Shown here piece by piece: positions 25,341 through 33,967 of a stretch of DNA of 56,753 bases. Under the pieces are notes generated by a model. That model was not told the DNA's origin and did no database searches. It saw only the letters and a program-made list of their open reading frames with translations. Numbering within the stretch: the first letter of the stretch is position 1; each line of letters begins with the position of its first letter. This stretch comes from Devosia sp. Root413D1 (lineage in GTDB: Bacteria; Pseudomonadota; Alphaproteobacteria; Rhizobiales; Devosiaceae). A program made the position numbers and the translations under genes. The stretch lies in NCBI RefSeq assembly GCF_001425235.1, contig NZ_LMEA01000014.1, positions 1 to 56,753 of the forward strand. Reading direction: 5' to 3'.

Positions 25341-26363
25341 ATGGACCGCAACATTTCACAGAAGCTGGCCACCGCGACGGTGGACTTCGACAAGCCGGGC
25401 AAGCAGGTCGGGTTTTTCCACATCCCGCTGTCGGTGCATGACGATGCCTGGGGCGTGGTGCCGGTGCCGGTGGCGGTGATCAAGAACGGGGTGGGCCCGA
25501 CAGTGATCCTCGAAGGCGGCAACCATGGCGACGAATATGAGGGCCCGATCACGCTGGGCGAACTGATCCGCGAGCTCGACCCGGCCGATGTCCAGGGCCG
25601 GCTGATCTTCATTCCGGCGATCAACCTGCCGGCCGTGAACGCGGCGCGGCGCACTTCGCCGATCGACGAAATCAACATGAACCGTACCTTCCCGGGCGAC
25701 CCGCTCGGCACCACGACGCGGCAGATCGCGGCCTATGTGAACGACGTGATCTTCCCGATGGGCGATGCGTTCATCGACCTCCATTCGGGCGGCTCTTCGC
25801 TCGATATCATCCCGAGCTCGGTGATCGAGCCGGGCGCGACGCCCGAGCAGCATGCGGCCAACGTCGCGGCGGCCAAGGCGTTCGGCACCGAAATCGCTGT
25901 GGTGATCGACAATCGTGGCGACCCGCGCACTGCCACCGCTTCGGCGGCGCTGCAGGGGATGACGGTGATCGGCACCGAGATGGCCGGCGGCGGCACGGTG
26001 TCGGTCGATGCCCTGGCGCTCTGCCGGCGCGGCGTGCGCAACGTCTTGGCGCATCTGGGCGTACTGCCGGCGAGGATGGCGAGCCCGGTGGCGGCCGAGC
26101 CGAAACTCTATGATCTCGGCCCCAGGGCGCATGTGATCGCCGAGGATGACGGGGTGTATGAGCCGCTGCATAAGCTCGGCACCGCGGTGGAGGCGGGGCA
26201 GTTGGCCGGCCGCATCCATTTCCTCGCCAATCCGGGGCGCACGCCGGTTGAACTGCACTACCGGGCCAGCGGCATCCTTTATGGCCGCCGCCAGCCGGGC
26301 CGGGTGCGGCCGGGCAATTGCTGCTTCGTCGTTGCTTCCCCGTACACGGCGCCAGCAGCATGA
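25341..26363 (+). CDS. Succinylglutamate desuccinylase/aspartoacylase family deacylase, DoeB-like
   Basis: 340 residues. Zinc-binding motif GGNHGDEYEG with His62 and Glu65, and the third ligand His148 in FIDLHSGG. NMNRTFPG (113-119) supplies the substrate Asn/Arg. The N-terminal GFFHIPLSVHDDAWGVVPVPVAVIKNG closely follows the pattern of N2-acetyl-diaminobutyrate deacetylases (DoeB/EutE) of ectoine breakdown. It would release an acyl group from an N-acylated amino acid in the cytoplasm. The next gene overlaps by 4 bases. No other ectoine genes are nearby, so the natural substrate may be another N-acyl compound. Confidence 0.78.
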   Translation: MDRNISQKLATATVDFDKPGKQVGFFHIPLSVHDDAWGVVPVPVAVIKNGVGPTVILEGGNHGDEYEGPITLGELIRELDPADVQGRLIFIPAINLPAVNAARRTSPIDEINMNRTFPGDPLGTTTRQIAAYVNDVIFPMGDAFIDLHSGGSSLDIIPSSVIEPGATPEQHAANVAAAKAFGTEIAVVIDNRGDPRTATASAALQGMTVIGTEMAGGGTVSVDALALCRRGVRNVLAHLGVLPARMASPVAAEPKLYDLGPRAHVIAEDDGVYEPLHKLGTAVEAGQLAGRIHFLANPGRTPVELHYRASGILYGRRQPGRVRPGNCCFVVASPYTAPAA

Positions 26364-27298
26364 TCACGCTCGCCGATATCAACGCCGCTGCCACCCGCAT
26401 CGCGCCGCATGTGCGGCGCACCCCGACCATCGAGGTGCGGGCTTTGTCCGCGCCGCTCACGCCGGCAAAGCTGTCGCTGAAGCTTGAGAACCTGCAGGCC
26501 ACCGGCTCGTTCAAGGCGCGCGGCGCCACCAACAAGCTGTTGTCGCTGCCGCCGGAAGCCTTAGCGCGTGGCATCGTCACCGCCTCGGGCGGCAACCACG
26601 GGCTGGCCGTAGCCCGGGCGGCGAAGCTGGCCGGGGTGACGGCGACGATTTATGTGCCCGAGAACATCACGGCGGCGAAGGTCGAAAAGCTGAAGCGCTG
26701 GGGTGCGACGGTCGAGATCACGGGCGCGGTGTGGAACGAGACCAACCTCCACGCGCTCGCCTTCGCCGAAACCCATGGCGCGGCGTATTTCCACCCCTTC
26801 GCCGATGCGGCGGTGATGGCCGGGCAGGGGACGGCGGCGCTGGAACTGCTCGCCGATGTGCCCGATCTCGACGTGGTGCTGGTCGCCATCGGCGGCGGCG
26901 GGCTGGTCTCGGGCATGGGTGTCGCGATCAGGGCGCTGAAGCCATCAGTGAAAATCATCGGCATCGAGCCCACGGGTTCGCCGACGCTCAAGGCCTCGCT
27001 CGATGCGGGGCACGTGGTGCGGCTCAAGGAAGTAACGAGCCGCATCGCCACGATGAGCTGCGCCGAAACTGACCCCGCGGTGTTCGACGTGGTGCGGTCA
27101 GTGGTCGATGACGTGGTGCTGCTCAGCGACGAAGACATGCTGGAAGCCAGCCGCTGGCTGTGGTTCGAACTTGGCATTGCCGCGGATCTGAGCGGGGCAG
27201 CGGCAGTGGCGGCGCTGATGACCGGACGGGTGGCGTATGGGGCCGGGACGTCGGTGGGGGCGCTGGTGTGCGGGGCTGGGCCGGAGGGGATTGCTTAG
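26360..27298 (+). CDS. PLP-dependent threonine/serine dehydratase family enzyme, EutB-like
   Basis: 312 residues, fold type II. The PLP lysine is Lys52 in GSFKARGATNK, the phosphate-loop partner SGGNHG spans 76-81, and AIGGGGLVSG carries the glycine loop. It lacks the C-terminal ACT regulatory domain of biosynthetic threonine deaminase, so it is of the short catabolic kind. A threonine-dehydratase-like gene (eutB) accompanies the DoeB homologue in rhizobial ectoine clusters, which fits the 4-base overlap with the DoeB-like gene here. It would beta-eliminate a 3-hydroxy amino acid, releasing ammonia. Confidence 0.78.
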   Translation: MITLADINAAATRIAPHVRRTPTIEVRALSAPLTPAKLSLKLENLQATGSFKARGATNKLLSLPPEALARGIVTASGGNHGLAVARAAKLAGVTATIYVPENITAAKVEKLKRWGATVEITGAVWNETNLHALAFAETHGAAYFHPFADAAVMAGQGTAALELLADVPDLDVVLVAIGGGGLVSGMGVAIRALKPSVKIIGIEPTGSPTLKASLDAGHVVRLKEVTSRIATMSCAETDPAVFDVVRSVVDDVVLLSDEDMLEASRWLWFELGIAADLSGAAAVAALMTGRVAYGAGTSVGALVCGAGPEGIA

Positions 27299-27330
27299 CG
27301 GCTCGTCGCTGCTGCCGCTGGTGGCTGTGG

Positions 27331-27434
27331 ACCCCCACCCCTGTCCCCTCCCCGCAAGGGGGAGGGAGACCCTCACACCGGCATATCAGTCTGCGTCTCC
27401 CTCCCCCTTGCGGGGAGGGATCAAGGGTGGGGGG
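27331..27434. repeat. Palindromic element between convergent genes
   Basis: ACCCCCACCCCTGTCCCCTC at 27331 pairs with the CTTGCGGGGAGGGATCAAGGGTGGGGGG segment ending near 27434, both around GAGGGAGAC/GTCTCCCTC. It is close kin of 24091-24193 and 20020-20135. It lies between the 3' ends of the PLP enzyme and KbaZ genes. Confidence 0.7.
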
Positions 27435-27461
27435 CAGCCCGCACCGGCGGAAGTGTTGGGC

Positions 27462-28754
27462 TTATGTCGCGACCCCGATACACGCGAAATACGGCACCAG
27501 CGCCGTCTGCACCTCTGCGTAGATCAGCGCCCTGGCCCAATCGGGCGGCCGGCTTTCCAGCCGCTCGGCTCGCGCGATCACCTCCGGCGCGAAGTACTGC
27601 TCGAGCACCGGAGCTGGTGGCTTGTCTCCACCCAGTGCCGCCAGCAACTGCCCGACTGCTGCCGTCGCCTGTGGCTGGGCCCAGTAATAGCGGATGCGGT
27701 CGGCGTAGCTGAAATGGCGGAGCAGCTTCAGCGTCGCGGCGTCGCCGGCATAGTGCTTGGCCCAGTTCCTGGGGTTGTCCAGCATCAGTGCTTCCATCAC
27801 CGGGGCGATCGGTTGGCGCGTGGCATCGGGGGCCAGCCAGCCTGCGATGCCATCCAGCGCGTAAACGGCCTGGCGGTAGGCGAAGGTGAGGGCGGGGCCG
27901 ACCTTCAGCACGGCGAAGTGGCGCTGCGCCAAAGCCGGGAAGACGTCCGGATACTGGTAGTCGGTGGAGTGCGCCTCAAAGCTCAGCCCGTCATGGCCCT
28001 CGAGCACCGGCGACAGCAGGTCGGGCGACGTGGTGTCGAAGCGGTGGATGTGGTCGGGGGCGAACTCTAAGCCCGGCTGCACCACGAGGCCGACGGCGCG
28101 CTGCCAGGCACTGTGCTCGAGCCCGAGCGCGGCGAAGGCGTCGCGATGCGCTGCGATGGTGGCGCGGGCATTAGCCGGCTCGGTGGGGGCGATACCGATG
28201 GGGCCCTCTTCGGCGCGGGCGCCGCCGGGGGGCGGCACTTCGGTGCCGAACATGTAGCTCAGCGACGAGGGGGCGGTGGTCGCGGCTTCGCAGACCGCGG
28301 CGAGGTCGGCGGCGCGTGCCGCGCTCAGCGCATCGCCGACCGCGGCGGGCTCGCCGGCGCAGCCCTCGGAGCAATCGAGATGGATCTTTGTGAAGCCGGC
28401 TTTCACATAGGCGGCGACGAGATCGCGGGCATTGGCCATGGCGATGTCGGCGGGCTGGTCGCGCCAGGCCTGCGGGCCCAGGTGATCGCCGCCGAACAGC
28501 ACGCGGCTGGCGTCGACGCCGCTGCGCGCGGCGATCCCGCGGACGAAGCTGATGAAGTCCGGCGGCGTCATGCCGGTATAGCCGCCGAACTGGTTCACCT
28601 GGTTGCTGGTGGCTTCGATCAGCAGCGGCACGTCCCATTCATCGGCCAGCAGCAGCGAGGCGGCGAGCACATCCGGATGGGCGGAGCAGACCGAGGGCAA
28701 GGCCTCGCCCGAGCCCCTGCGGTTGCGGGCGATGAGATCGCGGAGTTCCCTCAT
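27462..28754 (-). CDS. kbaZ: KbaZ/GatZ family protein (tagatose-bisphosphate aldolase subunit or 4-epimerase)
   Basis: 430 residues covering the whole KbaZ/GatZ family. The hallmark stretch is LLIEATSNQVNQFGGYTGMT near 44-63, followed by GGDHLGPQAW and HLDCSEGC. Classical KbaZ/GatZ assists KbaY/GatY, the catalytic tagatose-1,6-bisphosphate aldolase, but no KbaY/GatY gene exists in the window. Some stand-alone thermophile relatives have been described as fructose-6-phosphate/tagatose-6-phosphate 4-epimerases (from memory). In this operon with an AgaS-like domain, either role fits. The ATG at 28754 overlaps the fusion gene stop; the frame running further upstream is a shadow of that gene. Confidence 0.82.
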   Translation of the reverse strand: MRELRDLIARNRRGSGEALPSVCSAHPDVLAASLLLADEWDVPLLIEATSNQVNQFGGYTGMTPPDFISFVRGIAARSGVDASRVLFGGDHLGPQAWRDQPADIAMANARDLVAAYVKAGFTKIHLDCSEGCAGEPAAVGDALSAARAADLAAVCEAATTAPSSLSYMFGTEVPPPGGARAEEGPIGIAPTEPANARATIAAHRDAFAALGLEHSAWQRAVGLVVQPGLEFAPDHIHRFDTTSPDLLSPVLEGHDGLSFEAHSTDYQYPDVFPALAQRHFAVLKVGPALTFAYRQAVYALDGIAGWLAPDATRQPIAPVMEALMLDNPRNWAKHYAGDAATLKLLRHFSYADRIRYYWAQPQATAAVGQLLAALGGDKPPAPVLEQYFAPEVIARAERLESRPPDWARALIYAEVQTALVPYFACIGVAT

Positions 28755-30796
28755 TTGCGAGCTCCCGCCACCAGCATGGCGGCGCCGCGGACGCCACTGG
28801 CATCGCCGAAGCGGGCCGTGGCGAAGGCCGGCTGGCGTACCCCTGGCAGCATTTTGGGCGCGAAGACCCGCGACAGTTCGATGACGAGGCCATCGATATT
28901 GGAGAGGCCGCCGCCGATCACCACGCAATCGGCGTCGATGGTGAGCTGGATGGTGTGGATCAGTTCGCCGAGGATATCGAACCAGATGTCGAGCACTTGG
29001 CGCATCGCTGCGTCGCCGGCGGCAGCGCGGGCGACGATGGCGGCGGAGTCGACCGTCTCGCCGGTGAGGTGTTTGGCGATGCGGCCCATGCCGGGGCCGG
29101 AGAGCAGCGTCTCGTAGCAGCCGGTGCGGCCACAACCGCAGGCGACGATCGGCAGGTTGTGCCGCTGCACCAGTTCGGCGGGGAGGCCGAAATGGCCGAC
29201 CTCACCGGGCAGGCCATTGTGGCCGACGACGAGCTTGCCATCGACCGTGACGCCACCGCCGACGCCGGTGCCGAGGATCAGGCCGAACACCGTGCGATAA
29301 CCCGCCCCGGCGCCGCCATTGGCTTCGGAGAGGGCAAAGCACTTGCAGTCGTTTTCGACTGGAATGGCGCGGCCGATGCGGGCCGAGAGGTCGGCGCTGA
29401 GGGTGTGGCCTGTGGCCGGGACGTTCGAAGTCATCGAGATGCCGGTGGCCGGATCGATCAACCCGGGAAGGCCGACGCCGAGCTGCACCTTGGTGCCGGC
29501 AGTCTGGTCGAGCCAGCCGACCGCGCCTTCAAGCGCCTGCAGCAGTTCGTCATAACTGCCCTTGGCGGTGGGGAAGCGCTGGCGCTCGATGACGTCCAGT
29601 TTGTTATCGAACAGCCGCGCCTCGATCTTGGTGCCGCCGACATCGAGGGCGCCGAACAGCTGCGGGCCAGTCGCGGGCAGCAGGTAAAGCTTTACTCCGG
29701 CGACGACCCGGGTGAGGTTGCCCGAGGCGAAGGGGTTGTCGACGGTCAGCCCGAGCTTGTGCGACCAGATCACCGACAAGAGCTGCGCCACCATGACGTA
29801 GAGCACCGACGACCAGGCATCGTTGCCGACCGACGGCACCGGAATGTCGGCTCCATCAGCGGGGTCGCCGAGCCGCAGCACCACATCGGCGCCGAACTGC
29901 GCCGCGACCTCGGTGGCGAGGTCGGTGTCGTAGCGGCGGGTGTGCGGGTCGGAGGAGAGCAGCACGAAGACCCGCGTCCGGCCATTGGTGATGGCCTTGG
30001 GGCCATGGCGGAAGCCGAGGGTCGAATCCCATGAAGTGGGGATCTGGCCGGCCGCCAGTTCCAGTACCTTCAGCGCACTCTCGCGCGACGAGCCGGTGAG
30101 CGGGCCCGAGCCGAGGAACACGGCACGTTCCGGCATGGGCAATGCGATCAGCCGCTCCAGCTGTCCTGATAGCAGCGCCTCGGCGCCGTCGGCCAGCCGG
30201 GCCATGAGCTCGGCAACCGGTGCCGGCGGGGCGGGGTCGAATACGGCGAGCGCCGTCAGCAGCATGGTGGTGTAGCTCGACGTCATGGCGAAGCCGCTGT
30301 CGTCGGTTTCGGGCGGGAGCACGATGTTGCGCAGCTCTCCCGGCCCGGCATTGTCGGTGCGGGCCAGCGCGCTATTGGCGTTGCAGGTAATGTGCAGGCG
30401 ATCGGCTTCCGGCGCGTGCGCAGCGAGCAGGTCGAGCGTGCCGATGGTCTCGGAACTGTTGCCGCTGCGGCCGAACGACACCACGAGGAGCTTTATGCCG
30501 GGCCTGAGGTAGTTGCGTGGTGCGGCAATCAGGTCGGTCGAGGGGATGGCGCGGAAGCGGATCGGGCCGGGCGCGGTGTTGAGGTAGCTCGCCAGCGTCT
30601 CGCCGACAAAGGCCGAGGTACCGGCGCCGCAGAACCACACCTCATCCGGCCGGCGCTCGGCGATCCAGGCCGTTACCTCCGCGGCGATGGTCGCGAGACG
30701 CGGGCCGAAGCTGCGCCAGATCGCCGGCTGGCGCTTGATCTCCCGGGTGGTGGCCCAACGGTCGAGGTCGGTGGCGGGAAATGCGGCGTTGGTCAT
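28751..30796 (-). CDS. Fusion of AgaS-like SIS deaminase/isomerase with ROK-family sugar kinase
   Basis: 681 residues. Residues about 1-375 form a two-SIS-domain AgaS-like sugar-phosphate isomerase/deaminase (SFGRSGNSSET at 107-117, GFRHGPKAI at 261-269). Residues about 382-681 form a complete ROK kinase: nucleotide loop DVGGTK (385-390), catalytic Asp483 in ENDCKC, and zinc motif GEVGH...CGCGRTGC with His535, Cys553, Cys555 and Cys560. The two activities expected for amino-galactose use, phosphorylation and deamination/isomerisation to tagatose-6-phosphate, are thus in one chain. No deacetylase is nearby, so galactosamine or another 6-phosphate is possible. The Shine-Dalgarno GGAAGG precedes the ATG at 30796. 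The normal arrangement is separate genes. Confidence 0.87.
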   Translation of the reverse strand: MTNAAFPATDLDRWATTREIKRQPAIWRSFGPRLATIAAEVTAWIAERRPDEVWFCGAGTSAFVGETLASYLNTAPGPIRFRAIPSTDLIAAPRNYLRPGIKLLVVSFGRSGNSSETIGTLDLLAAHAPEADRLHITCNANSALARTDNAGPGELRNIVLPPETDDSGFAMTSSYTTMLLTALAVFDPAPPAPVAELMARLADGAEALLSGQLERLIALPMPERAVFLGSGPLTGSSRESALKVLELAAGQIPTSWDSTLGFRHGPKAITNGRTRVFVLLSSDPHTRRYDTDLATEVAAQFGADVVLRLGDPADGADIPVPSVGNDAWSSVLYVMVAQLLSVIWSHKLGLTVDNPFASGNLTRVVAGVKLYLLPATGPQLFGALDVGGTKIEARLFDNKLDVIERQRFPTAKGSYDELLQALEGAVGWLDQTAGTKVQLGVGLPGLIDPATGISMTSNVPATGHTLSADLSARIGRAIPVENDCKCFALSEANGGAGAGYRTVFGLILGTGVGGGVTVDGKLVVGHNGLPGEVGHFGLPAELVQRHNLPIVACGCGRTGCYETLLSGPGMGRIAKHLTGETVDSAAIVARAAAGDAAMRQVLDIWFDILGELIHTIQLTIDADCVVIGGGLSNIDGLVIELSRVFAPKMLPGVRQPAFATARFGDASGVRGAAMLVAGARK

Positions 30797-31656
30797 CAGG
30801 TGCTTCCTTCCGGCTCGACCCGGTGAACGGCGACGCCATGCTGCTCGAGCAGGGCGGCGGTGTCATCGGCAAGGCCAGTGTCAGTGATCACGGCGTGGAT
30901 ACGGTCGGGTTCGCAGATCCGGTGCAGGGCCGGAGCGCGGAATTTGGTGGAATCGGCAAGGACGATCACCCGCTGGCTTACCGCCACCATGGCGGCGTTC
31001 TGGTGCGCTTCGGCCTCGTTGAAGGTCGAAAGCCCCAGTACCGGGTCGATGGCGTCGGCGCCCAGATAGATGGTGTCGAAGCGCATGCCGCCGAGTGTGC
31101 TCTCGACCATGCGGCCGGACAGCGAGTTGGATTCGAAGCGCACCGTCCCACCCGGCAGCATGACGGTATGCTGGCTGGCGCCGCGGAACGCCTCGGCGAT
31201 GTTGAGGCCGGTGGTCATGATCACCAGCGGGTTGGCGGCCCTGAGGTTCTCGGCAAAGAGCTGGGTGGTCGAGCCGGAATCGATGATGATCGAGCGGTCG
31301 TCGCCGACCAGCGACAGGGCGAAGCGGGCAATGGCGCGCTTGGCGGCAAGGTTCACCACGGCCTTGTCACTGACGCCGGGGTCGATGAACGCCCCTTGCG
31401 CTTCGCGGGCCAGCGACATGGCCAGCGCGATGCGGAAATCCGGCAGACCCTTGAAGCCGAACTGGCGGCAGAAGCGCAGCACGGTGGGCTCGCTCACGGC
31501 GGCGGCGCGAGCGATCTCCTGCAGCGGCTCGCGGATGAAGGCCTCGGGCGACGCGAGCAGGTACCCGCCCACCAGCTGGAACGCCTTGTTGTAGCCGCCG
31601 AGCCCCAGCGAGATCGACTGGATCAACGTCGGGGCCGTGGGCTCCAGTGCCGCCAT
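30796..31656 (-). CDS. Hybrid regulator: RpiR-type HTH with DeoR-type sugar-phosphate sensor
   Basis: 286 residues. The N-terminal ~85 residues carry an RpiR helix-turn-helix (LQEIARAAAVSEPTVLRFCRQFGFKG, about 45-70). Residues ~95-275 are a DeoR C-terminal domain rather than the SIS domain expected in RpiR proteins: IIDSGSTT (124-131), GLSTFNEAEAHQNAAM and ADSTKF (235-239) are DeoR hallmarks. It would sense a phosphorylated sugar of the pathway. It overlaps both neighbours by one base (TAATG, TGATG). A palindrome of RpiR flavour lies before the operon at 33701-33735. Confidence 0.85.
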   Translation of the reverse strand: MAALEPTAPTLIQSISLGLGGYNKAFQLVGGYLLASPEAFIREPLQEIARAAAVSEPTVLRFCRQFGFKGLPDFRIALAMSLAREAQGAFIDPGVSDKAVVNLAAKRAIARFALSLVGDDRSIIIDSGSTTQLFAENLRAANPLVIMTTGLNIAEAFRGASQHTVMLPGGTVRFESNSLSGRMVESTLGGMRFDTIYLGADAIDPVLGLSTFNEAEAHQNAAMVAVSQRVIVLADSTKFRAPALHRICEPDRIHAVITDTGLADDTAALLEQHGVAVHRVEPEGST

Positions 31657-33656
31657 TACTTCACCTCGTCGACGGCCCGCATGCGGAAGTTGAGATGCGC
31701 CGGCACCGGATGCTGCTGCAGCCGTTCGGCCAGCTCGGCCGGAGAGGGCGCGCGCTTCAGCGCGTGCTGCAGGCGGCCGCGCTGCAGGGCAACCCAGAGC
31801 TCGTCGAGCAGGTTCTCGCCTTCGCGCACCGTGGCGAAGTGGCGGTCGAGCAGCCGTTCGAGCAGGTCGAGATCGCCCTCCGACGCCGCCACCATGGCGC
31901 GGCCCAGATGCACGCGCTCGTCGGTGAGCGCCGAGGCCGGCAGGCCCGAAGCAAAGGCGCGGAGCCGCTCCAGCCGGCCGTGCTTGACCAGGAGGCTGAC
32001 GATCTCGGCGGCCAATGCTGGCGGCGCGTCGCCACTGGCCCATGCAGCGAGATAATCGCGGTCGGCGGCATCGGGATCGCTGGTGACCAGGGCGCGCTGG
32101 CGGCGGCCGAGCCAGGTGGGTTTAAGCGCAATGGAGCGCTCGAACAGGGCGCGCGCCGCATCACGATCGCCATTGTCGAGCGTCGCGATGCCGAGCAGCA
32201 GGGCGTGGAGCCAGGTCTCGCCCTGCTTGTCGCGGCTCTTTTCGAGCGCCGCCACCCAGAGGGGCGAGACGGCGAAATCGGCCGGCACGCGCTTGAGGCT
32301 TGCCTCGGAGAAGCGGCCGCTGGTCGCGAGTTCGTCCCAGCAATCGGTCGGGTGAGGCACGGTGAAATCGAGGCCCTGGGCGAGCGGCCTGCCGGTGAGC
32401 TTTTCCTGGCGCGCGCCCCAGGGCGAACCGTCGCTCAGGCGCCGGGTCAGCGGCTGGCGCGACACTGCCGTGAGGAAGGCGTCGACATCGGCGAGCTCGG
32501 TCGCGGGAAAGCGGGTGTCGATCGCCCTGGCCGCAGCGCCGACGGCGCGCTGGTAATCGGCGGCATGCACGTCGGTGGGGTCGACGCTCAGCGCGCCATA
32601 GACCTCGGTCCAGTGCACTTCGCTGTTGGGCTGCAATTCGAAGCGCTGGTTCTGCGTCGGGGCGATGCCGCTCTGGATTTCGATATAATCGCCCTCACCG
32701 GGCTTGGCCAGGTAGTCCATCCATTGCTGGCCACCGGCGCCGGTGCCGAAATAGAAGAATTTTCTGCCCTGCAGCGCCGAGGTGGCGGTCTGGGCGAGGC
32801 CGACGCCATCGGCATCGAGCCCGGCAATGAACAGCCGCTCCGCATCGGGCTTGCGGAAGAATACCGAGGTCGAGTCGCGCCATTTGTCCGGATAGGAGCC
32901 GTCGAAACGATCGGGATCGGGGAAAGGGAAACGGGCCAGCTCGTTATTGGGCAGCACGTGCTCGATCGAGTAATCGGCGGGAGCGAGGACGCGCATCCCC
33001 TTCGACATCGGCGCCGCGACATTGGTCCACCAATAGGCGAGCTTGGTCGCATCGGTATTGTTGACGATGCGGCCATGCACATAGAGCCGGTCGTCGTCAT
33101 CGGGCAGGAACAGGTCGATCTGCCAGGTGGCTTCGACGATGCGGTCGAACTCGTAGATGCGCAGCACCGGGCCGCGGTCGGTTTCGATGCTGCCGGCAAA
33201 GACCTGGGCGGTGGTGAAGGGGGTGTGGCCGGGGATCAGGCCGTTCCACTCGATGCCGCCCGAGAACCAGGCGTTGAGTGCGGCGAGGTTGGCCGGCTGG
33301 AACACCGGATTGGTGAACACCAGGTCGCGGCCGAGCTTCAGGTCGTGCAGCTCCATCAGGCGGCCGCCATATTGCGGCGCCACCGAAACGCGCAGTCGCC
33401 CGTTCTCCAGCGTCACCAGCGGCATCTCGCCCGGCTCCTGCGAGCGATCGTAATCGTCGTAGACCCGGTAGGGCAGGATCGAATCCTTGCCCCAGTTGAA
33501 GCCGTGGGCGTTTTCCTCGTCGGTGAGGCCGCGATTGGGCGGGGTATTCTTGTCGAGGGTGGGCTGCTGCCAGCGGAAACGGGGCAGGGTGCTCGGCCCG
33601 CCCAGGTTCGACATCGGTAATGCGTGCGACGTTCTGGTGATCTTGGTCTTGGTCAT
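31656..33656 (-). CDS. DUF5107-like beta-sandwich protein with C-terminal TPR-like repeats
   Basis: 666 residues, no signal peptide. About 60-390 looks like the DUF5107/aldose-epimerase-like beta domain: TLENGRLRVSVAPQYGGRLMELHDLKLGRD at its start, then FSGGIEWNGLIPGHTPFTT and HWTEVYGALSV. About 400-666 is alpha-helical with repeat-like pairs (ALLLGIATLDNGDRDAARALFERSIALKP), consistent with tetratricopeptide repeats. I suspect a cytoplasmic sugar-binding or epimerase-like role. The ATG at 33656 has GGGAGG 5 bases upstream. It is the first gene of operon E; the strongest palindrome in the window lies 45-80 bp before it. No enzyme activity can be claimed. Confidence 0.78.
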   Translation of the reverse strand: MTKTKITRTSHALPMSNLGGPSTLPRFRWQQPTLDKNTPPNRGLTDEENAHGFNWGKDSILPYRVYDDYDRSQEPGEMPLVTLENGRLRVSVAPQYGGRLMELHDLKLGRDLVFTNPVFQPANLAALNAWFSGGIEWNGLIPGHTPFTTAQVFAGSIETDRGPVLRIYEFDRIVEATWQIDLFLPDDDDRLYVHGRIVNNTDATKLAYWWTNVAAPMSKGMRVLAPADYSIEHVLPNNELARFPFPDPDRFDGSYPDKWRDSTSVFFRKPDAERLFIAGLDADGVGLAQTATSALQGRKFFYFGTGAGGQQWMDYLAKPGEGDYIEIQSGIAPTQNQRFELQPNSEVHWTEVYGALSVDPTDVHAADYQRAVGAAARAIDTRFPATELADVDAFLTAVSRQPLTRRLSDGSPWGARQEKLTGRPLAQGLDFTVPHPTDCWDELATSGRFSEASLKRVPADFAVSPLWVAALEKSRDKQGETWLHALLLGIATLDNGDRDAARALFERSIALKPTWLGRRQRALVTSDPDAADRDYLAAWASGDAPPALAAEIVSLLVKHGRLERLRAFASGLPASALTDERVHLGRAMVAASEGDLDLLERLLDRHFATVREGENLLDELWVALQRGRLQHALKRAPSPAELAERLQQHPVPAHLNFRMRAVDEVK

Positions 33657-33700
33657 TGGCGCCTCCCGGTCGTGCAAGCGCGGCGAAAGTATACGGTGTT

Positions 33701-33735
33701 TGTAGTTTTGCAACATCGATGTTTGTGAAACTACA
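33701..33735. promoter_or_regulatory. Nested palindromic operator candidate of operon E
   Basis: TGTAGTTT at 33701-33708 and AAACTACA at 33728-33735 are perfect inverted 8-base arms. Centred between them, ACATCGATGT (33713-33722) is a perfect 10-base palindrome. Smaller GTTT...AAC dyads also repeat inside. TGTAGT...ACTACA is a common theme of RpiR-family operators, matching the RpiR-type DNA-binding domain of the linked regulator. It lies 45-79 bp before the first gene of the operon. Confidence 0.65.
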
Positions 33736-33750
33736 TCCGCCTGTGCCTGC

Positions 33751-33876
33751 GGCCCCACCCCCTCCCGGCCTCCCCCATCAAGGGGGAGGTGTGGGGCCGG
33801 TGAGTTGGGCTGGATCGTGCCATACACGCAGAGCGGCACCTCCCCCCTTGTGGGGGAGGTTGGGAGGGGGGAGGCC
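33751..33876. repeat. GC-rich inverted repeat
   Basis: The CCCCACCCCCTCCCGGCCTC segment starting near 33754 pairs with GGTTGGGAGGGGGGAGGCC near 33859-33876. Internal CCTCCCCC and GGGGGAGGTG stems (around 33770-33790 and 33838-33860) form further hairpins. It resembles the other intergenic palindromes of the window and is not coding. Confidence 0.65.
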
Positions 33877-33967
33877 GCAAACACCGTCCTCGCAATTCCT
33901 CCACGAGCACTGGCTTTTTCCCAAAACCGCTCTAGGCTCACCGGTGCTTTTCTTGAGGGGGGAATCC

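Follow-up and report, generated by a model that had tools for sequence, protein, structure and literature searches.

A putative galactosamine-type operon of Devosia in which KbaZ has no aldolase partner

How might a bacterium use a galactosamine-type sugar when its operon encodes a protein of the KbaZ family and no aldolase for that protein to assist? This question is raised by four genes at 27462..33656, minus strand, of a 56,753-nucleotide stretch of Devosia sp. Root413D1 (contig NZ_LMEA01000014.1, assembly GCF_001425235.1), called the window throughout. The assembly comprises 5.85 Mb in 14 contigs, with completeness rated 100% and contamination 2.29%. An initial annotation of this stretch proposed that an AgaS-like and a ROK domain in one chain, followed by a KbaZ acting alone as a 4-epimerase, form a two-gene route into glycolysis. 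From gene content, the fusion of AgaS to a kinase, the absence of partner genes, co-occurrence and residue conservation, all of which we observe here, we conclude that the operon is probably a galactosamine-type catabolic branch lacking both tagatose-6-phosphate kinase and tagatose-bisphosphate aldolase; its reactions, substrate and exit we infer from sequence.

Partner genes in the operon and the genome

From 33656 to 27462 the genes run in the order DUF5107, regulator, AgaS–ROK fusion and KbaZ, with overlaps between neighbours of 1, 1 and 4 bp, the last being that between agaS-ROK and kbaZ (Table 1). The initial annotation was right about the fused chain followed by KbaZ and about the tight operon, but it left undescribed the regulator and DUF5107 genes that the same span covers. 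A domain search of the neighbouring genes agrees with its statement that the operon contains no KbaY/GatY, no LacC-type tagatose-6-phosphate kinase and no transporter, other transport systems being present within the window outside the operon. Its 'no deacetylase' holds for the operon only: elsewhere the genome encodes two NagA proteins above the curated cut-off, one of them adjoining a NagB-II-like gene.

A kbaY or gatY gene elsewhere in the genome had been named beforehand as a possible refutation. A search with PF01116, which finds matches in 11 of 14 control genomes, returned no protein from this genome, and KbaZ, its single PF08013 protein, is thus without a KbaY/GatY-type partner. The parallel check for tagatose-6-phosphate kinase gave the same answer: all ten PfkB proteins score below the cut-off of TIGR03168 (1-phosphofructokinase-type hexose kinase; best 97.2 bits, cut-off 216.4) and none is LacC-like. 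One ribokinase, one IolC–aldolase fusion and one tagatose kinase among them pass their own cut-offs, the others staying below those shown. Beyond this genome, none of 39 genomes carrying the AgaS cluster passes the cut-off of the KbaY model TIGR01858, nine giving no match whatever. The idea of a lone KbaZ working as a 4-epimerase has therefore held under these genomic tests, as far as gene content can speak for it.

KbaZ and its relatives

The window KbaZ belongs to the GatZ/KbaZ family by its match to PF08013 (501 bits, cut-off 26.7), is about 43% identical to an E. coli KbaZ-family protein and has solved homologues in 3txv and 2fiq. Its residues C23, E47, D90, H91, E172, H262 and K284 correspond to C20, E44, D87, H88, E171, H257 and K279 of GatZ, seven active-site positions derived from modelling in which H88, E171 and H257 are predicted zinc ligands and D87 the predicted base (available part of PMC11907403). 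All seven are kept in 81 of 81 aligned KbaZ rows, four rows of 350 amino acids or fewer having been left out beforehand. This conservation supports catalytic competence of KbaZ, not the choice of reaction. The same portion of PMC11907403 reports that an engineered E. coli requires gatZ to form tagatose from glucose, an ability that returns when gatZ or kbaZ is supplied along with a phosphatase. The result is read as epimerisation of fructose-6-phosphate to tagatose-6-phosphate in vivo, and earlier reports of an epimerase in A. tumefaciens and S. meliloti are cited.

In a quick tree of 85 KbaZ sequences, with support from the Shimodaira–Hasegawa-like approximate likelihood ratio test (SH-aLRT), 59 rows form one group (SH-aLRT 100) that is drawn entirely from AgaS clusters and contains the window protein. 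The 26 rows on the other side include E. coli GatZ and KbaZ, the proteins encoded with a tagatose kinase in Shinella, P. denitrificans, Martelella and S. meliloti, an R. leguminosarum protein linked to SIS, every one of the 14 rows that our genome searches supplied (11 from genomes of KbaZ-less clusters and 3 from the class draw described below, one of the 3 being identical to one of the 11) and 5 rows from AgaS loci (L101, L102, L103, L105 and L126). Amino-sugar clusters mostly, not always, use one KbaZ group. Genomes without the AgaS-cluster group carry a KbaZ of the other side, as would be expected if any KbaZ can clear tagatose-6-phosphate.

Related loci and co-occurrence

Searching with an AgaS profile built from seven sequences gave 541 relatives; the best 80 loci were kept, and all counts out of 80 refer to these. 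ROK homologues occur in 75 (fused to AgaS in 11), KbaZ in 64, NagA-like genes in 62 and a UgpC-like ATPase in 71, and 42 have a NagB-II-like SIS gene in addition to AgaS. Homologues of hexosaminidase, present in 41 loci, point to N-acetylhexosamines as substrates; the enzyme is GH20 in both examples scanned, L134 and the plasmid locus L062 (outside the 80). This content suggests that the loci process N-acetylglucosamine and N-acetylgalactosamine side by side with a shared kinase and deacetylase, AgaS and KbaZ being specific to galactosamine. A class II aldolase and a PfkB kinase were found in only one locus, L123. This search of the 80 loci used E. coli KbaY/GatY as references for class II aldolases and two Devosia kinases as references for PfkB, so that a distant LacC could have escaped it. 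We set the L123 pair aside as pathway partners: judged from the gene starts, it lies among iol-like genes on the other strand, in a myo-inositol-type operon.

Shinella sp. SUS2 and Sinorhizobium sp. RAC02 have what looks like the full operon, with a binding protein, two permeases, DUF5107, ATPase, regulator, fusion, KbaZ and NagA; the NagA-type gene of RAC02 passes TIGR00221, and its Shinella homologue follows kbaZ. The Paracoccus seriniphilus row reads regulator, SIS, ROK, KbaZ, amidohydrolase and beta-N-acetylhexosaminidase. The three Devosia loci examined have neither transporter nor deacetylase beside the operon, and the Devosia arrangement looks like a reduced version of the full one.

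KbaZ is not in the fetched stretch of 16 of the 80 AgaS loci. Twelve of these were checked genome-wide, the remaining four being loci of 6–11 kb, and exactly one KbaZ lies elsewhere in 11 of the 12 genomes. An even draw of 385 genomes of the class has the family in five, one by a partial match and one being the window's own.

Some loci show further features. CutC-family ('copper homeostasis') genes occur in 23 of the 80 amino-sugar loci (for example, L134:13288-14031), a hint that CutC may be an enzyme connected with sugars and not with copper. M81/MlrC-type metallopeptidase genes occur in six (for example, L098:7551-8987). L052 and L053 (genomes G151 and G122) keep ROK and transport genes and have, by eye, an asparaginase-like gene in place of AgaS and KbaZ with a NagA-like gene adjacent, possibly for the use of glycosyl-asparagine.

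The AgaS–ROK fusion, the regulator and DUF5107

Residues 382-677 of the fusion match PF00480 (211 bits, cut-off 22.9), the signature of a ROK sugar kinase, with solved homologues that include the N-acetylglucosamine kinases 7p7i and 4db3; those of the AgaS part are 3c3j, 3i0z and 3odp. The closest AgaS relative found is that of Devosia insulae (97% identity). We reject a one-off assembly error as the origin of the fusion, because an uninterrupted, full-length copy is present in 11 of 80 other loci (51–97% AgaS identity) and in Sinorhizobium sp. RAC02. Across 10 aligned fusions, nine of them at 52–95% identity to that of the window, conserved residues are kept in both halves, and a structure model (mean predicted local distance difference test score, pLDDT, 82) predicts two domains of mostly high confidence, between which residues 359-377 form a low-confidence stretch. 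Among 297 genomes of the order searched with the fusion protein, AgaS and ROK are fused in the window genome and G282 and separate in G051, G176 and G181; G176 was considered as a third fusion and rejected, since a stop between the two genes leaves them split. The tree neither establishes nor rejects that the fusion arose only once (three changes; approximately unbiased test, p 0.41).

The regulator joins an RpiR-type HTH_6 domain to a DeoR/AgaR-type sugar-phosphate sensor domain, whose best NCBIfam match is AgaR (174.5 bits, below the cut-off of 260). Homologues of both parts of this hybrid are found in 28 of the 80 AgaS loci. The DUF5107 protein has a PDB relative in 5cd6, and Foldseek leads from its low-confidence model (pLDDT 59.7) to mutarotases; the model is too poor for more than 'mutarotase-like'. 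A DUF5107 homologue is present in 8 of the 80 loci and never shares a locus with a hexosaminidase homologue, an exclusion that may reflect alternative roles or ways of presenting the sugar.

Table 1. Features of the operon (window coordinates)
Feature	Position	Strand	Evidence
KbaZ/GatZ-family protein, putative tagatose-6-phosphate/fructose-6-phosphate 4-epimerase, 430 amino acids	27462..28754	-	PF08013, 501 bits; residues; tree
AgaS–ROK fusion, 681 amino acids, putative bifunctional amino-sugar kinase and galactosamine-6-phosphate deaminase/isomerase	28751..30796	-	TIGR02815, PF00480
AgaS-type SIS domain, residues 1-371	29684..30796	-	TIGR02815 at residues 16-371, 295 bits
ROK kinase domain, about residues 380-681, ENDC and CGCGRTGC segments	28751..29659	-	PF00480, 211 bits
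Transcription regulator, 286 amino acids, HTH_6 and DeoRC	30796..31656	-	PF01418, PF00455
DUF5107 protein, 666 amino acids, helical repeat tail, galactose-mutarotase-like domain, first gene	31656..33656	-	PF17128

Around the operon, a search with Rfam gave nothing above gathering thresholds in the window. Intergenic stretches on both sides (33656-33966 and 27299-27461) are G-rich and palindromic-looking by eye. At 25341-27298, convergent with the operon, a gene for an AstE/AspA-type deacylase (DoeB-like) overlaps one for a threonine-dehydratase-like pyridoxal phosphate enzyme, a pair also kept beside the operon in Devosia sp. 66-14.

Proposed pathway

We propose that N-acetylgalactosamine (or galactosamine) receives a phosphate at C6 from the ROK domain, that the acetyl group of an acetylated substrate is removed by a NagA encoded elsewhere, and that galactosamine-6-phosphate then undergoes deamination and isomerisation in the AgaS domain, giving tagatose-6-phosphate, which KbaZ alone would epimerise to fructose-6-phosphate. 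The regulator would sense a sugar phosphate of the pathway, and the DUF5107 protein is probably a sugar mutarotase or binder. The two genes are probably not the self-contained route that was first suggested: in relatives the operon includes a NagA-type deacetylase, and Devosia, unless its substrate is free galactosamine, probably relies on a NagA from elsewhere. In E. coli, nagA can replace agaA, according to the part of PMC3668189 available. Entry 'into glycolysis' is doubtful as well. A search for PF00365 phosphofructokinase found no match in the genome, which also has no class II aldolase, so fructose-6-phosphate would more likely pass through glucose-6-phosphate to the Entner–Doudoroff or pentose-phosphate pathway. 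In such an organism one would not expect a tagatose-bisphosphate route.

Several points weigh against this pathway. The window KbaZ is below the TIGR02810 equivalog cut-off (478.3 versus 568.8 bits), the AgaS part is under that of TIGR02815 (295 versus 529.2 bits) despite a near full-length match over residues 16-371, and the ROK part is below that of the NagK model PRK13310 (263.4 versus 380 bits); by their scores under NCBIfam cut-offs, KbaZ, AgaS and the AgaR-type sensor are relatives of the named proteins rather than certified orthologues. The seven GatZ residues are family-wide, so an aldolase helper would be expected to have them as much as an epimerase. The 59-row group that holds the window KbaZ has, to our knowledge, no characterised member, and the E. 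coli and tagatose-kinase-linked proteins lie outside it. The Devosia operon has neither deacetylase nor transporter, and the best match in Devosia to the Shinella binding protein is only 28% identical, so no close orthologue was found.

Co-occurrence, too, is tempered. All seven members of the AgaS profile came from KbaZ-bearing clusters, which biases the counts in the 80 loci towards KbaZ linkage, and these counts rest on the best 80 of 541 relatives. The contrast between the 11 of 12 tested genomes and the class background (Fisher's exact p ~2e-17, with the window's own genome left out) is only a guide, because the background was unmatched by family and one of its positives, G558, has the same KbaZ at the same place as the tested genome G306. 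The genome of L140 has AgaS and ROK and no KbaZ anywhere, a real exception.

Alternative explanations

If KbaZ were a non-catalytic subunit of tagatose-bisphosphate aldolase, as the family annotation (PF08013, TIGR02810) and the E. coli aga cluster with its kbaZ, agaS and kbaY together would have it, KbaY/GatY and a tagatose-6-phosphate kinase should be encoded elsewhere, as in E. coli. With no PF01116 protein in the genome, that explanation is already contradicted, short of a gene in an unassembled gap; there is furthermore no LacC-like kinase, and no KbaY scores above the cut-off in any of the 39 cluster genomes. We regard it as extremely improbable. Scarcely more credible is that KbaZ is itself the tagatose-6-phosphate kinase and that a class I aldolase then cleaves the bisphosphate. 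Such a kinase is the older annotation and the depositors' name for 3txv and 2fiq, the proposal of AgaZ in this role is repeated in a review (PMC12118421, in the part available), and the genome does have two PF01791 aldolases. However, KbaZ has the metal-binding histidines and glutamate and the catalytic aspartate of GatZ, and E. coli GatZ and KbaZ act as epimerases in the work cited above (PMC11907403, in part). One PF01791 protein, nearest to DhnA-type in NCBIfam and below cut-offs, lies away from the operon among genes judged by eye to be kinase- and oxidoreductase-like, and the other, adjoining cytidine deaminase- and aldehyde dehydrogenase-like genes, reads as DeoC.

It is also unlikely, if less so, that the fusion handles glucosamine, with AgaS yielding fructose-6-phosphate directly and KbaZ serving another route such as tagatose through an unlinked tagatose kinase. 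Among named proteins, N-acetylglucosamine kinases come nearest to the ROK part, the tagatose kinase scores above its cut-off (541.8 versus 420 bits) in a genome with a single KbaZ, and there are the 16 AgaS loci without KbaZ in the fetched stretch. Yet the genome has a separate NagA and NagB-II-like pair, and with NagB-II-like genes in addition to AgaS in 42 of the 80 loci, AgaS would be redundant if it acted on glucosamine. Moreover, kbaZ and agaS-ROK overlap by 4 bp, KbaZ is kept in 11 of the 12 tested genomes in which AgaS is unlinked to it, and in E. coli agaS is required for galactosamine use with nagB no replacement, as reported in the part of PMC3668189 available. The galactosamine branch with KbaZ as its epimerase remains our preferred reading.

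The tagatose kinase lies at G000:C9:45009-45884 (L019, L176), near transport and GH2-like genes by eye. Since the genome has just one KbaZ, this kinase is without a KbaZ of its own, and the operon KbaZ may also serve this second, unlinked source of tagatose-6-phosphate. Taken further, we see an even chance that a galactosamine shunt free of tagatose-6-phosphate kinase and aldolase, with a dedicated group of KbaZ epimerases, is the norm in Alphaproteobacteria. KbaZ would then be a hub shared by all sources of tagatose-6-phosphate: amino-sugar clusters that have none would borrow it from the tagatose-operon side of the family, and Devosia would lend its own to an orphan tagatose kinase. Epimerisation, not assistance to an aldolase, would be the main function of the family.

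Significance and relation to known systems

KbaZ and GatZ proteins still carry annotations as aldolase helpers or kinases. A complete-rated genome with KbaZ, AgaS, an amino-sugar kinase and no KbaY-family protein puts the epimerase role to a clean test in nature, in a cluster found in many alphaproteobacterial genera. If the pathway is correct, the amino-sugar routes that are reconstructed automatically for these bacteria need revision, and the AgaS–ROK fusion with KbaZ would provide a short enzyme set for work on tagatose-6-phosphate and rare sugars.

One of the closest points of reference is the E. coli aga/kba pathway for N-acetylgalactosamine, which has AgaS, KbaZ and an AgaR-type sensor in common with the operon and tagatose-6-phosphate as an intermediate, proposed here for Devosia. 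It differs in uptake by a phosphotransferase system and in the KbaY aldolase (PMC3668189, in part), whereas in Devosia KbaY and a LacC-like kinase are absent, AgaS is fused to a ROK kinase and the DNA-binding domain of the regulator is of the RpiR type. E. coli GatZ and KbaZ, of the same family and with the same seven active-site residues as the window KbaZ, coexist with KbaY/GatY, unlike the Devosia protein. The Shewanella pathway (AgaP, AgaK, AgaA-II and AgaS) offers non-phosphotransferase uptake and a cytoplasmic kinase followed by deacetylase and AgaS, as described in the available parts of PMC2996990 and PMC12118421; there AgaZ is proposed as tagatose-6-phosphate kinase (PMC12118421, same part), whereas in Devosia KbaZ has no aldolase partner and the kinase is fused to AgaS. 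The tagatose–galactitol operons of rhizobia and Paracoccus (Shinella, P. denitrificans, Martelella and S. meliloti) likewise have KbaZ, beside a tagatose-kinase homologue, and no KbaY annotated in the fetched stretch, but tagatose-6-phosphate would arise there from tagatose rather than from an amino sugar, and their KbaZ is on the other side of the tree.

The use of N-acetylgalactosamine in mat bacteria has been reconstructed in PMC5507952 (seen here as a partial text), and our literature search recognised no account of a KbaZ shunt for galactosamine, although an earlier description is possible. Because PMC11907403, in its available part, reports epimerisation by gatZ and kbaZ and cites earlier reports, the chemistry itself is not new. 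What appears new is the putative placing of a KbaZ epimerase at the exit of a galactosamine pathway, a well-supported variant of the known one.

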